A DNA stretch of 64,000 nucleotides, taken from Bacteroidetes bacterium GWF2_35_48 (GTDB lineage Bacteria; Bacteroidota; Bacteroidia; Bacteroidales; GWF2-35-48). Shown in pieces: positions 51,652-60,439 of the stretch. Under the pieces are notes generated by a model that saw nothing but the letters and a program-made list of their open reading frames with translations, made no database searches and was not told the origin of the DNA. The first letter of the stretch is position 1, and every line of letters begins with the position of its first letter. The stretch is taken from positions 4,420 through 68,419 of the forward strand of contig MEOG01000140.1 in assembly GCA_001769125.1 (NCBI GenBank), given 5' to 3'. The translations under genes and the position numbers were made by a program.

Positions 51652-51853
51652 CGCTAAATTTTAATCATTACAAAGAAATAAAAATTTCGCAGCATTTTAT
51701 CTTAATTGAAATATGAATATGCAACTCAAAAAATATTCTGCATGAGAAAAAGAATTAAGTCAATAGGAAATTCAATAGATATACAATTGTTAGTTTAATA
51801 GATGTACAATAGTGCAACAATAGATGTTCAATAGATGTTCGATAGATGTACAA

Positions 51854-52020
51854 TTGTATTCCTACCGAATTCCTATTGTATTCCTACCGAATTCCAATTG
51901 TATTTCTACCGAATTCCAATTGTATTCCTACTGAATTCCTATTGTATTCCTACCGAATTCCTATTGTATTCCTACCGAATTCCTATTGTATTCCTACCGA
52001 ATTCCTATTGTATTCCAATC
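51854..52020. repeat. 22-bp tandem minisatellite (7 full units plus a partial)
   Basis: Unit TTGTATTCCTACCGAATTCCTA, starts at 51854, 51876, 51898, 51920, 51942, 51964, 51986. Confidence 0.9.
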
Positions 52021-56047: not shown

Positions 56048-56695
56048 ATGATTGAGCAAATAAAAAATCGGTATTCCGTTTTGATAACAAATGAAGATTC
56101 TTTGTCTTGTGGCAATACGATTCAATATGTTAACGTAAAAGAAGCGGATATCTGTCTTGACCTTGGTTGCGGCAGGGGAACAGACGCTTTAAAACTCGCT
56201 CCTTTAGTAGGGAGTGAAGGTTTTGTATTTGGCGTGGATATTACGCCGGAAATGATTCAAAAAGCAAAAAAAAATGCAGAAATATCCAATACGAAAAATG
56301 TAGATTTTATTGTTAGTCCTATTGAAGTTTTACCATTCAAAACATTTACTTTTGATTGGGTTATTTCAAATTGTGCGTTGAATCATTCTCAAAATAAAAG
56401 TCAGGTTTGGAATGAAATATTCAGAGTTTTAAAGCCCCATGGACAATTTGTTGTAAGTGATATTTATGCTGTAAACCCGATTTCAGAGGAATACAGTAAA
56501 AATTCTCAGTTTATTGCAGAATGCTGGGCGGGTGCTGTTACAAGGGATGATTATATTGATCAGATTATTGATGCTGGTTTTCGCGATATTATGATTTTGC
56601 ATGAAAGCAGCCCTTATGTGCGTGAAAAAGCAGAATTAATAAGTTTTACTATTACGGGCATTAAGCCTGGCGTTTGTTCTTGTTGTAGTTCCTGA
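56048..56695 (+). CDS. ArsM-like SAM-dependent methyltransferase with C-terminal CSCCSS tail
   Basis: ICLDLGCGRGTDALKLA; VISNCALNHSQNKSQVWNEIFRVLKPHGQFVVSDI; AECWAGA; ends GVCSCCSS. Confidence 0.75.
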   Translation: MIEQIKNRYSVLITNEDSLSCGNTIQYVNVKEADICLDLGCGRGTDALKLAPLVGSEGFVFGVDITPEMIQKAKKNAEISNTKNVDFIVSPIEVLPFKTFTFDWVISNCALNHSQNKSQVWNEIFRVLKPHGQFVVSDIYAVNPISEEYSKNSQFIAECWAGAVTRDDYIDQIIDAGFRDIMILHESSPYVREKAELISFTITGIKPGVCSCCSS

Positions 56696-56752
56696 AACAA
56701 AAAAATATTTGATGTAGAAAAATATTTTGTATTTTTATAAAAATATATACAC

Positions 56753-57235
56753 ATGAAAAAATATTTCTCCTTTTTACCGTTTTTTATTCTTGCAGCTATT
56801 ATTAGTTGCAGCAATGCGACATCACAGGATTCTGATAAAGGAAATGGGAAATCGCTTGCTCCTTCTGAAAAATCATCTCTTGTGAAAAAAATTAATACAG
56901 CAATTTTTAAAGAAAAAATATTTGATTTTGACGTTCACAAAGACTGGAAATTTTCAGGAGACAAGCCTTGCATTGTTGATTTTTATGCAGACTGGTGCGC
57001 CCCATGCAGAATGATAGCACCCATTCTTGATGAATTATCAATAAAATATGAAGGTAAAATAGATATTTATAAAGTAAATATTGATTATGAAAAAGCCCTT
57101 GCTGGTGCATTTGGAATAAGTAGTATTCCTGCCGTTTTGTTTTGTCCTAAAGATGGTAAACCCTCAATGGCTAACGGTGCACTTCCGAAAGAAGATTATG
57201 AAAAAGCGATTAACGAAGTCTTATTGATTAAGTAA
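56753..57235 (+). CDS. Thioredoxin-fold lipoprotein
   Basis: FILAAIISCSN lipobox; VDFYADWCAPCRMIAPILDELS; ISSIPAVLF. Confidence 0.9.
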   Translation: MKKYFSFLPFFILAAIISCSNATSQDSDKGNGKSLAPSEKSSLVKKINTAIFKEKIFDFDVHKDWKFSGDKPCIVDFYADWCAPCRMIAPILDELSIKYEGKIDIYKVNIDYEKALAGAFGISSIPAVLFCPKDGKPSMANGALPKEDYEKAINEVLLIK

Positions 57236-57346
57236 ATGATGTATGCAAATTGTGGAAGAATATCTTTAATGATGGAAGTCGGCAGACAAAAAAGTCAGCA
57301 GTCAAAATAGTCGGCAGTTGGCAGTCAAATAGTCGCCAGTCAAACA

Positions 57347-57393
57347 GACTGAGGACTGAGGACTGAGGACTGTAGACTGTAGACTGTAGACTG
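57347..57393. repeat. Heptanucleotide tandem repeat
   Basis: (GACTGAG)x3 (GACTGTA)x3 GACTG. Confidence 0.9.
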
Positions 57394-57426
57394 AAAAAAC
57401 ATAAATTAATAAATAAATCTAAAAGT

Positions 57427-57531
57427 ATGAAATCACTTGTAAAGAAAAAAAATCAGAAAAAAAATGATGGTACAAAAGTCGCACAATGCTGTGCAAAAAT
57501 TTCAAAAACTGTTGCTGGTTGTCACGATTAA
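57427..57531 (+). CDS. 34-aa Cys-containing peptide, candidate RiPP precursor (not in ORF track)
   Basis: ATG...TAA reads MKSLVKKKNQKKNDGTKVAQCCAKISKTVAGCHD; directly upstream of the radical SAM/SPASM gene on the same strand. Confidence 0.5.
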   Translation: MKSLVKKKNQKKNDGTKVAQCCAKISKTVAGCHD

Positions 57532-57612
57532 ATTTGGTTATTAAGGCAAAATTAGTTTTGTTTAAAACGTTAATATTTATTCGTTACTTTTGCCTTTTGT
57601 CTTTTTCCTTTT

Positions 57613-57646
57613 ATTGTACAATCGTTCCATGGAACGATTCCTACAA
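57613..57646. promoter_or_regulatory. Hairpin/palindrome between peptide and radical SAM genes
   Basis: Perfect 20-bp palindrome AATCGTTCCATGGAACGATT (57620-57639) with outer ATTGTA/TACAAT arms. Confidence 0.6.
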
Positions 57647-57680
57647 TCTCTTTTGCCTTTTACCTTAAATCTCCCTATTC

Positions 57681-58982
57681 ATGCAGCCTTCAAAGCACAA
57701 CATTATTTCAAAAATAAAAGACTCAAATGATTTTTTTATGGTCAATCCTTTATCCGGAAATGCCGATATTTTAACGGAGAAAGAGGTCATGGCATTCCAG
57801 AATGGCAAATTTGAGAATACCGATGAACTGATGGGAAAGGGCTATATTGTTGATCCGCTAAAAGAACAAATGCTTTTTAATTATAAGTACATCCGTTCGC
57901 TTGAAAGTAAAAACGGTGATGAAATTCAGATTTTTTTTGTTCCCAATTACTCCTGTAATTTTGCGTGTTCCTATTGCTATCAGGATATGTATGAGCAAGC
58001 CAAAGATTTAAGTGATGCGAACATGATTGATGCTTTTTTCAATTACATTTCAGATGCTTTTAAGGATCGCCAAAAATACATTACAATTTTTGGAGGCGAG
58101 CCACTTCTTGCTTCTGAAGCGCAAAAGCAAAATATTAAAAATATTATTTCTAAAGCAAAAATTTATAATTTAGGAATTGCTGTTGTAACAAACGGATACC
58201 ATCTAACAGAATATATTGATATCTTAAAACAAGGTATTATTCGCGAGATTCAGGTTACTTTAGACGGAACAAAAGAAATACATGATAAACGAAGATTTTT
58301 AAAAAATAAATCTGGAACTTTCGATAAAATTGTAGAAGGGATTGACGCCTGCATTGATGCGAAGCTACCGGTTAATCTCAGGATTGTTGTTGACAAAGAG
58401 AACATAGATGATTTACCTGCATTAGCAAAATTTGCTATTAGTAAGGGCTGGACAAACTCTGTTTTTTTTAAAACGCAATTGGGAAGAAATTATGAATTGC
58501 ATCATTGTCAGGAAGAAAATTCGCGCTTATTTACTCGTATTGAAATGTATGAAAATATTTACAATCTGATAAAAAAATATCCTGAAATTATAGAATTCCA
58601 CAAGCCGGCATTTTCAATATCAAAATTTATTTTTGAAAATGAAGAGCTACCGGAGCCTTTATTCGATTCCTGCCCTGCATGCAAAACGGAATGGGCTTTT
58701 GATTATACAGGAAAAATTTATTCTTGCACTGCAACTGTAGGTAAAGATGGGGAGGAGCTGGGAACATTTTATCCACAGGTATTTCTTGATGAAAATAAAA
58801 TAAAAGAATGGCAGCAACGTGATATTACATGTATTAAGGAGTGCAAGGAATGTTCTTTACAACTTGCTTGTGGTGGAGGTTGTGGCTCTGTAGCAAAAAA
58901 TCAAACAGGAAAAATTGCAAGCCCTGATTGTCGGCCTGTAAAAGAATTGCTGGAATTAGGTTTTTCGTTGTATGCAAAGTGA
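57681..58982 (+). CDS. Radical SAM/SPASM domain protein (peptide maturase-like)
   Basis: PNYSCNFACSYCYQDMY (CxxxCxxC); ITIFGGEPLL; SPASM Cys pattern CPACKTEWAFDYTGKIYSCTATVG...CIKECKECSLQLACGGGC. Confidence 0.92.
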   Translation: MQPSKHNIISKIKDSNDFFMVNPLSGNADILTEKEVMAFQNGKFENTDELMGKGYIVDPLKEQMLFNYKYIRSLESKNGDEIQIFFVPNYSCNFACSYCYQDMYEQAKDLSDANMIDAFFNYISDAFKDRQKYITIFGGEPLLASEAQKQNIKNIISKAKIYNLGIAVVTNGYHLTEYIDILKQGIIREIQVTLDGTKEIHDKRRFLKNKSGTFDKIVEGIDACIDAKLPVNLRIVVDKENIDDLPALAKFAISKGWTNSVFFKTQLGRNYELHHCQEENSRLFTRIEMYENIYNLIKKYPEIIEFHKPAFSISKFIFENEELPEPLFDSCPACKTEWAFDYTGKIYSCTATVGKDGEELGTFYPQVFLDENKIKEWQQRDITCIKECKECSLQLACGGGCGSVAKNQTGKIASPDCRPVKELLELGFSLYAK

Positions 58983-59167
58983 GCAACCTGGGTTTCGACT
59001 CCCCTCAACCCCCGGTTACTCTCCACCCTGCTGACTTCGGCTCCGCTCAGTCAGCGGTCAAACCTATACAACCTACAACCTGCAACCTGATAAGTTGAGC
59101 GAAGTCGAAACTTGCAACCTGCAACAACAATAGTCTATTCATAAACAAAAACATAATCTTAAAAAAT

Positions 59168-60439
59168 ATGAAAGAAATAACATCTGCGGAATTTGAAAAA
59201 GAAGTACTGCAAAAAATAGGAATTGTTGTAGTAGATTTTTATTCAACTGAATGTCCACCATGCGAAGCATTGGCGCCAAAATTTGATGCATTGAGCGAAC
59301 TCTATAAAGGGCATGCAGAGTTTGTGAAAATTTTCCGACAGGGGAACAAAGAGCTTGCTGCATCGCTTGGGGTAAGCGGTTCTCCAACTGTTTTATTTTT
59401 TCAGGATGGAAAACAAATCGGCGATGTTTTGTCTGGAGGGATTAAAAGAGCTGCAATTGAAAAGAATCTTAATGCTTTATTACCTGAACAAATAGTTGCA
59501 TCTATTGCATCAAAAATAGTTCCCGCTGAACAGCGTTGTGATGTATTGATTATTGGCGGTGGTCCATCAGGTTTGGCTGCTGGAATTTATCTGGCACAGG
59601 CTAAAATTGATACGTTGATTGTGGATTCAGGTATGCCGGGAGGTCAAGTTTCAACAACGCATTTGGTTTCAAATTATCCCGGGTTTGCTGAACCTGTGAA
59701 TGGGTATATGCTTACGCATTATATGACCGAGCAATGCAAAAATGCAGGTGTGCGCTTTAAACCTGCTGTTGATATTACCGATATTAATTTAAAAGAAAAA
59801 AAAATAATTGTTGATGGGTTTGAAACCATTCATGCAAAAAAAATAATAATCGCTACTGGCGCATCTCCTCGTTATCTGAATGTTCCCGGTGAAAAAGAAT
59901 TAAAAGGGAAAGGCATCTCCTACTGCGCAACTTGCGATGCAAAATATTTTCAGGATAAAGAAGTAATTGTTATAGGAGGAGGAAATTCTGCTGTGGAAGA
60001 ATCTGAATTTATCAGTAAATTTGCGAGTAAAATTACAGTTATTCAGAATCTGGAAAAGCTTACAGCAAACAAGGAGGCGTGTGATAAATTACTTGGGAAT
60101 CCAAAGGTGAGCGCATTTTATAATTCAGAACCCCGTTCTTTTGAAAAAACAGGAGACAGAATAAAAGTTAAAGTTGAGGATGTCCGTAAAAAAGAATTTA
60201 TCACTTATGAAGCAGACGGAGCTTTTGTCTTTGTAGGAATGAAGCCCAACACAGACATGATAAAAGATGAACTGGAAAAAGACAAATGGGGCTACATTAA
60301 AACAGATGAAGACATGCACACAAGCATTCAGGATGTTTTTGCGATAGGAGATTTAATCAGTAAAAAATACAGACAAATTACAACAGCAGTTAATGACGGT
60401 ACTATTGCAGCTATTGTTGCAGCAAAGGAGCTGGAATAA
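59168..60439 (+). CDS. Thioredoxin-thioredoxin reductase fusion protein
   Basis: N-terminal VVDFYSTECPPCEALAPKFDAL; then CDVLIIGGGPSGLAAGIYLAQA, ISYCATCDAKYF, VIVIGGGNSAVEE, VFAIGDL. Confidence 0.92.
   Translation: MKEITSAEFEKEVLQKIGIVVVDFYSTECPPCEALAPKFDALSELYKGHAEFVKIFRQGNKELAASLGVSGSPTVLFFQDGKQIGDVLSGGIKRAAIEKNLNALLPEQIVASIASKIVPAEQRCDVLIIGGGPSGLAAGIYLAQAKIDTLIVDSGMPGGQVSTTHLVSNYPGFAEPVNGYMLTHYMTEQCKNAGVRFKPAVDITDINLKEKKIIVDGFETIHAKKIIIATGASPRYLNVPGEKELKGKGISYCATCDAKYFQDKEVIVIGGGNSAVEESEFISKFASKITVIQNLEKLTANKEACDKLLGNPKVSAFYNSEPRSFEKTGDRIKVKVEDVRKKEFITYEADGAFVFVGMKPNTDMIKDELEKDKWGYIKTDEDMHTSIQDVFAIGDLISKKYRQITTAVNDGTIAAIVAAKELE

Follow-up and report, generated by a model that had tools for sequence, protein, structure and literature searches.

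A Cysteine Peptide, a Radical SAM/SPASM Enzyme, an ArsM-like Methyltransferase, and a Thioredoxin–Thioredoxin Reductase Fusion as a Candidate RiPP-like Cassette in Several Bacterial Phyla

What is the role of a 34-residue peptide with three cysteines that is encoded between a methyltransferase resembling arsenite methyltransferases and a radical S-adenosylmethionine (SAM) enzyme? The question arises at positions 56048 to 60439 of a 64,000-nucleotide stretch of contig MEOG01000140.1 from Bacteroidetes bacterium GWF2_35_48, the whole of which is called the window below. An original prediction, made from the letters of the window, had described five genes here as a candidate undescribed pathway, either of the ribosomally synthesized and post-translationally modified peptide (RiPP) type or for metalloid/thiol detoxification. 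The five open reading frames (ORFs) lie on one strand where it had placed them, and the motifs it quoted (ISNCALN, AECWAGA, CSCCSS, WCAPC, CPPC, CATC, and a complete SPASM cysteine pattern) were confirmed, as were the protein classes of the four larger ORFs by Pfam and NCBIfam models. We favor, at a probability of roughly 0.6, a RiPP-like maturation cassette that would make an intracellular, redox-cycled thiol peptide carrying a soft atom for methylation. The parts are as follows.

56048–56695, + strand: ArsM-like SAM methyltransferase, 215 aa, core part, with CSCCSS as its C-terminal tail
56108–56110, 56372–56374, and 56522–56524, + strand: methyltransferase C21, C109, and C159, on ArsM arsenic-binding positions
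56753–57235, + strand: lipoprotein thioredoxin (WCAPC), optional neighbor, not core
57427–57531, + strand: 34-aa Cys peptide MKSLVKKKNQKKNDGTKVAQCCAKISKTVAGCHD, presumed precursor, with an N-terminal MKSL..K leader and a variable spacer
57481–57528, + strand: 16-aa peptide core AQCCAKISKTVAGCHD, spacing fixed in 125 non-redundant copies
57681–58982, + strand: radical SAM/SPASM enzyme, 433 aa, presumed peptide maturase
57681–57920, + strand: putative RiPP recognition element (RRE)-like domain at the N-terminus of the radical SAM enzyme, residues ~1–80
57954–57977, + strand: radical SAM CX3CX2C motif (C92, C96, C99), in 92/92 homologues
58671–58931, + strand: SPASM region with seven Cys (C331, C349, C388, C391, C397, C401, C417)
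59168–60439, + strand: thioredoxin (Trx)–thioredoxin reductase (TrxR) fusion, 423 aa, core part, with CPPC at 59252–59263 and CATC at 59924–59935

Whether the peptide is a gene at all was addressed by comparing loci. A short ORF ending in AQCCAKxSxxxxGCHD or a near copy preceded the radical SAM gene in all 12 of the first loci checked besides the window. Of 128 loci finally collected, 101 had enough flanking DNA, and in 97 of these the peptide adjoins the radical SAM gene, a short conserved precursor gene near a SPASM enzyme being one criterion for a RiPP maturase. The peptides are 30–60 aa long, and their last 16 residues follow the consensus A[QL]CC[AST]Kx[ST]xxxxGCHD-stop. Over the 125 copies, A, CC, K, and GCHD are invariant, position 8 is S or T, and position 5 is A, S, or T. 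The copies were collected with a loose pattern, CC.K followed by a Cys close to the stop codon, so that CC, K, and the last Cys were demanded by the search, while A1, Q2, A5, and S8 were not; GCHD was imposed by a later filter, and all loose-pattern matches except a few spurious ones ended in it. The codons of the core are free to change (pN/pS 0.16, with synonymous sites almost saturated), and by this measure the core is under purifying selection. On such comparative evidence the 34-aa peptide is a genuine gene, because 125 conserved copies with mostly synonymous changes at conserved positions are not expected of a chance ORF. No Pfam or NCBIfam model matched the peptide. Long ORFs containing the motif at four loci (L161, L172, L176, L179) were considered as peptide gene fusions and were judged to be read-through of an upstream open frame. 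An additional upstream CC pair occurs in the peptides of L225–L230, L087, L214, and L217 (e.g. QSCCGTANNTVAQCCSK; that of L087 is AQCCATAQCCAK).

The peptide does not travel alone. All four core parts, namely methyltransferase, peptide, radical SAM enzyme, and Trx-TrxR fusion, were found in 93 of the 101 loci, usually in the order methyltransferase–peptide–radical SAM–fusion or fusion–methyltransferase–peptide–radical SAM. This count excludes the counter-case framed with the original prediction, in which radical SAM homologues would have no conserved peptide nearby and no recurring methyltransferase or reductase genes. Among 60 related genomes, 8 encode the radical SAM enzyme, and exactly those 8 carry the full-length fusion (8/8 versus 0/52 without the enzyme) and the cassette-type methyltransferase (Fisher test, 4e-10); the peptide occurs in the same 8 plus one further genome, G038 (4e-9). 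In the other 52 relatives, TrxR is of the ordinary kind only, and the ArsM-type proteins are more distant ones encoded in longer frames. Co-conservation across Bacteroidota, proposed earlier as a check, was borne out with a degenerate DNA pattern for the core, which matched 6 of 395 Bacteroidota genomes, exactly those with a radical SAM orthologue (peptide in 6/6 with the orthologue versus 0/389 without). The reversed control pattern gave 0 matches in the 395 genomes, and the peptide pattern gave none in genomes of the phylum carrying more distant SPASM relatives. At three loci (L074, L078, L105) the radical SAM gene has no peptide next to it but keeps the fusion; in these genomes the peptide is encoded elsewhere, paired with the methyltransferase. 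These split loci suggest that methyltransferase with peptide and radical SAM enzyme with TrxR may form two working couples.

When one genome per species was scanned, 371 stretches proved to encode relatives of the radical SAM enzyme; the best 80 of the 371, which are the most similar, were taken as loci. Among them are Bacteroidota, Spirochaetota, Elusimicrobia, Myxococcales, and some labeled Ignavibacteria, phylum labels being those of the sequence records and the genomes being mostly metagenome-assembled genomes (MAGs). Whole-genome scans found the system in 12 of 284 genomes taken as Myxococcota and in 33 of 296 taken as Spirochaetota. By these sequence assignments the four-gene cassette is present in at least four phyla, Bacteroidota, Spirochaetota, Myxococcota, and Elusimicrobia. 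Radical SAM orthologues in the relatives and across the phylum are 52–66% identical; those of a Spirochaetota sister clade are only 35–43% identical, yet have the same parts and the same peptide core. The cassette was also found on contigs of 3.8 and 4.3 Mb, and a location on contigs of this size rules out small-contig contamination. Comparison of gene content shows that the four parts are inherited together in several phyla. Among 72,556 plasmids, none matched the radical SAM enzyme at 1e-40. A cultured bacterium, Carboxylicivirga linearis FB218 (L080), is among the carriers, and one Myxococcales MAG (G458) holds three copies of the whole cassette (L199, L200, L201).

The radical SAM enzyme (PF04055, 6.8e-21) has the CX3CX2C motif and a complete SPASM pattern, C331...C349, C388-X2-C391-X5-C397-X3-C401, C417. 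Six of the SPASM cysteines are present in 92/92 homologues and C417 in 91/92; an extra invariant cysteine outside the clusters, C276, lies in the block GRNYELHxC. The predicted model (mean predicted local distance difference test, pLDDT, 79.5) consists of an N-terminal domain, a barrel, and a low-confidence SPASM end. Its N-terminus has three strands followed by three helices (E8-11, E18-22, E27-31, H33-40, H47-53, H59-79) at pLDDT 70–90. This block looks like a precursor-binding RRE domain, a likeness that we infer from the model, the Foldseek alignment having covered the full-length enzyme. The best PDB match was CteB (5wgg, E 3.5e-18), followed by anSME, TigE, SuiB, and ChlB, with full-length alignments to CteB, SuiB, and TigE; judged from the model, the fold neighbors are peptide- and protein-modifying enzymes. 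The conserved Cys peptide beside a SPASM enzyme, the maturase-like model, and the near-perfect co-occurrence support the RiPP-like part of the original prediction.

Known families do not account for the enzyme. CefB (NF038107), a SPASM maturase of a Cys peptide, is the nearest NCBIfam family and gives the best family match, over residues 1–431, but at 159.7 bits against a cut-off of 600; its target has Cys at every fifth residue, whereas the peptide here has CC-x9-C and ends in GCHD. CteB, the SCIFF/ranthipeptide thioether maturase (PDB 5wgg, 5why), and PapB (NF047865) share the fold, SPASM, and a putative RRE-like N-terminus, but are about 18% identical and act on a different precursor; PapB scored 127 bits against a cut-off of 340. 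Identities as TIGR04463 or Clo7bot were rejected at their curated cut-offs.

The methyltransferase raises the question of what is methylated. Its closest PDB sequences are ArsM proteins with three cysteines aligned, and the 13 best PDB folds for its AlphaFold2 model (pLDDT 91.4) are all ArsM/AS3MT, human AS3MT included. The original prediction had named the ArsM-like positions C109 and C159, correctly but incompletely; C21 completes the three, and the ArsM positions aligned with them are established As ligands. C109 and C159 are present in 84/84 homologues and C21 in 82/84, and in the deep clade this triad is still invariant, unlike CC17-18, C36, and the CxC tail. That selection has kept precisely these three thiols points to a soft atom as the probable methyl acceptor. 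The enzyme is distinct from the established family (PDB 4fsd, 4fr0, 5evj; PRK11873) in being shorter (~215 aa) and without the C-terminal domain, in having an extra conserved CCLSCG, C36, and CxC tail, and in being coupled to peptide and radical SAM genes outside ars operons. Against the PRK11873 cut-off of 263 bits, the enzyme of the window scored 181.8, that of L122 197.7, and that of L232 238.3, all below. The DVU_1556 family methyltransferase (NF045667), an ArsM relative, was likewise missed at 91 bits with a cut-off of 155.

Both thioredoxin genes had been counted as pathway members, and only one is a core part. The Trx-TrxR fusion (PF00085 and PF07992) scored 308.1 bits against TIGR01292 (cut-off 343.45), with CATC conserved and a Trx domain fused in front. 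The lipoprotein thioredoxin, a TIGR01068 member at 100.3 bits (cut-off 96.8), occurs in 20 of the 101 loci and is optional. A second Trx-TrxR-like frame is present in the genome of the window (G000:C8:95967-97157), matching query residues 21–420 at 37% identity with one in-frame TAA.

The genes around the cassette were tallied as the 25 commonest neighbor families. In Bacteroidota the commonest same-strand neighbors are DUF1847, thioredoxins, DUF302, and type III sulfide:quinone reductase (SQR)-like proteins, with counts (of 148 neighbors) of 19 for DUF1847, 18 for DUF302, 10 for type III SQR-like FAD proteins, and 3 for methionine gamma-lyase. DUF1847 is often a few bases 3' of the radical SAM gene and DUF302 often directly 3' of the fusion, and the two could be accessory parts; the open-access literature searched does not mention DUF1847. 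They recur beside Bacteroidota cassettes at 25 and 28 loci, respectively (L096, L098, L115, L122, and others). In Spirochaetota and Myxococcota, MarR regulators and DUF5714 recur. Since the neighbors differ by phylum, the four-gene core appears portable and the sulfur-related genes a lineage-specific context. No ABC exporter, peptidase, or immunity gene recurs among the commonest families, nor does any ars gene. At L155, L156, and L157, methyltransferase and peptide form a pair at a distance from the radical SAM gene. L157 has a tetrathionate reductase-family octaheme cytochrome nearby, and L156 one that looks similar.

Based on these parts, the following mechanism is proposed. The N-terminal RRE-like domain would bind the MKSL..K leader, and the SPASM enzyme would then modify the 16-aa core, most likely by cross-linking one of its three cysteines through a thioether or another bond. 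That the radical SAM enzyme acts on the peptide is very probable from the gene pairing and the model. The product would probably stay in the cell as a peptide cofactor and not serve as an antimicrobial, because the commonest neighbors include no exporter or peptidase and the core is almost unchanged from phylum to phylum. The remaining thiols, the vicinal CC and the C-terminal GC, might hold a soft atom, either a trivalent metalloid or sulfur/selenium, a role that we propose tentatively, at somewhat less than even odds. The ArsM-like enzyme might methylate this atom or the thiol to which it is bound. In each cycle, peptide and enzyme disulfides might be reduced with NADPH by the Trx-TrxR fusion. 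A still bolder version is a new class of ribosomal peptide cofactor in which the Cys peptide, matured by the radical SAM enzyme, holds trivalent As, Sb, Se, or Te, or sulfane sulfur, for ArsM-family methylation and is recharged by its own Trx-TrxR; we regard this as a speculative extension, less likely than not to be correct.

Several observations weigh against the proposed cassette function. One 99% complete genome (G038) has a perfect CCHD peptide (L151:8296-8394) but lacks the radical SAM enzyme, methyltransferase, and fusion of the cassette, although an assembly gap is possible. The methyltransferase of the window has D17-S18 (56096–56101) where 79/84 relatives have CC, and L057 and L214 also differ there. 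The cassette contains no peptidase, leaving leader removal unexplained, and rare exporters could be missed by tallies of the commonest families. The modification and the cargo are predictions from genes and models. The G038 peptide is near QmoC/HdrC-like and other Hdr-like genes, a peroxiredoxin, and another methyltransferase.

The alternatives differ mainly in what the thiols are for. In a sulfur or persulfide carrier, the peptide would bear sulfane sulfur or a thiol, Trx-TrxR would reduce it, and methylation would cap it or release methanethiol. The type III SQR-like, DUF302, DUF1847, and methionine gamma-lyase neighbors in Bacteroidota fit this picture, as do single loci with the octaheme tetrathionate reductase-family cytochrome or a QmoC/Hdr-like protein; yet the commonest families next to cassettes of Spirochaetota and Myxococcota do not include these genes, and the ArsM-type cysteines would be left unexplained. 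The Cys spacing of the core is, to our eye, reminiscent of the C-terminal arm of DsrC. A profile search lent this no support, as no PDB chain, DsrC included, matched at E 10, a 32-position profile having little power. We consider such a carrier unlikely. Arsenic or antimony detoxification, in which peptide thiols would present As(III) to the ArsM-like enzyme, Trx-TrxR would reduce intermediates, and methylated arsenic would be excreted, draws on the ArsM fold and the three As(III)-binding cysteines kept from Bacteroidota to Spirochaetota, on the suitability of a vicinal CC and a third Cys for trivalent metalloids, and on Trx/TrxR being an established reductant in ArsM reactions. Ordinary ArsM, however, works without a peptide or a radical SAM enzyme. 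In the 60 relatives, ACR3 is found within 5 kb of 11 of 19 ordinary ArsM-type paralogues but of none of the 8 cassette methyltransferases (P 0.008), which counts against simple arsenic detoxification. ACR3 is elsewhere in seven of the eight cassette genomes tested, and three genomes (G003, G033, G055) have both the cassette methyltransferase and an ordinary ArsM. By neighbor families and ACR3 distances, the cassette was never found in an ars operon in the genomes examined. For the metalloid/thiol detoxification proposed originally, the ArsM fold and arsenic-binding triad speak in favor and the lack of an ars-operon setting speaks against, the Bacteroidota neighbors suggesting sulfur/redox chemistry; we judge arsenic or antimony detoxification improbable.

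If the peptide needed no modification and worked as a small thiol protein or as a subunit, the radical SAM enzyme would have another substrate. The lone G038 peptide beside Qmo/Hdr-like genes and the three genomes in which the genes of peptide and methyltransferase are separated from those of radical SAM enzyme and fusion would agree with this. It is made quite improbable by the maturase fold with its putative RRE-like domain and by the genome sets tested, in which peptide and radical SAM enzyme occur together almost without exception. SPASM enzymes often make antimicrobial or signal RiPPs, and a secreted product of this kind would be at odds with a core near-invariant across phyla and with the lack of a recurring exporter, peptidase, or immunity gene, which leaves it very little credence. 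A 34-codon ORF by itself is no proof of a gene; chance ORF and chance neighbors are nonetheless refuted by the 125 conserved copies and the co-occurrence across genome sets, and their probability is negligible.

How the proposed RiPP-like cassette relates to known systems can be asked part by part. The arsenosugar (ArsM/ArsS) and arsinothricin (ArsL/ArsM) pathways also pair an ArsM-type methyltransferase with a radical SAM enzyme, but the latter acts on small arsenicals and not on a ribosomal peptide, and we know of no Cys peptide or Trx-TrxR fusion in them. The NCBIfam models of these pathways scored 95–111 bits, far from their cut-offs of 240–500. In pyrroloquinoline quinone (PQQ) and mycofactocin synthesis, a small precursor and a SPASM enzyme give an intracellular peptide-derived redox cofactor; unlike the cassette, they have unrelated precursors and no ArsM-type enzyme or TrxR. 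To our knowledge, CteB and PapB have no ArsM or Trx-TrxR partners, and no other system combines RiPP-type peptide modification with an ArsM-type methyltransferase and a thioredoxin reductase of its own. By the two features tested, the cassette appears to fall within the radical SAM RiPP-like systems, its chemistry being a prediction. Pfam, NCBIfam, and the other family libraries searched name neither the peptide nor the gene set. The open-access literature, to which the search was confined and which includes a radical SAM mapping paper (PMC9062424) and a survey of Bacteroidales RiPPs (PMC10352776), does not describe the set, subscription papers being outside this scope. Within these sources, the four-gene set seems to be undescribed, as had been predicted.

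If the bolder version is correct, this would be the first peptide-borne substrate for the ArsM methyltransferase family, inside the cells of several unrelated phyla. If the proposed cassette is correct, one system would unite RiPP maturation, methylation of the ArsM type, and a dedicated thioredoxin reductase, and such an intracellular peptide cofactor would have been overlooked because its key gene has only 30–60 codons. The 371 radical SAM relatives indicate that the system is widespread among environmental bacteria, and it could bear on sulfur or metalloid cycling.

Some features of the DNA itself were also recorded. The spacers before the peptide (57276–57395) and before the fusion (~59003–59140) consist of short tandem or low-complexity repeats (AAGTCGGCAGTCAAAA, AGACTGAGGACTGT; CAACCTGCAACCTG). 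The spacer between peptide and radical SAM gene (57530–57690) folds better than its shuffles (z -2.6) and contains the inverted repeat AATCGTTCCATGGAACGATT. Upstream, at 51853–52016 of the window, there is a tandem array of 7.5 copies of a 22-base unit with 95% matching, within a short open frame rich in YSYRIPIVFLPN.

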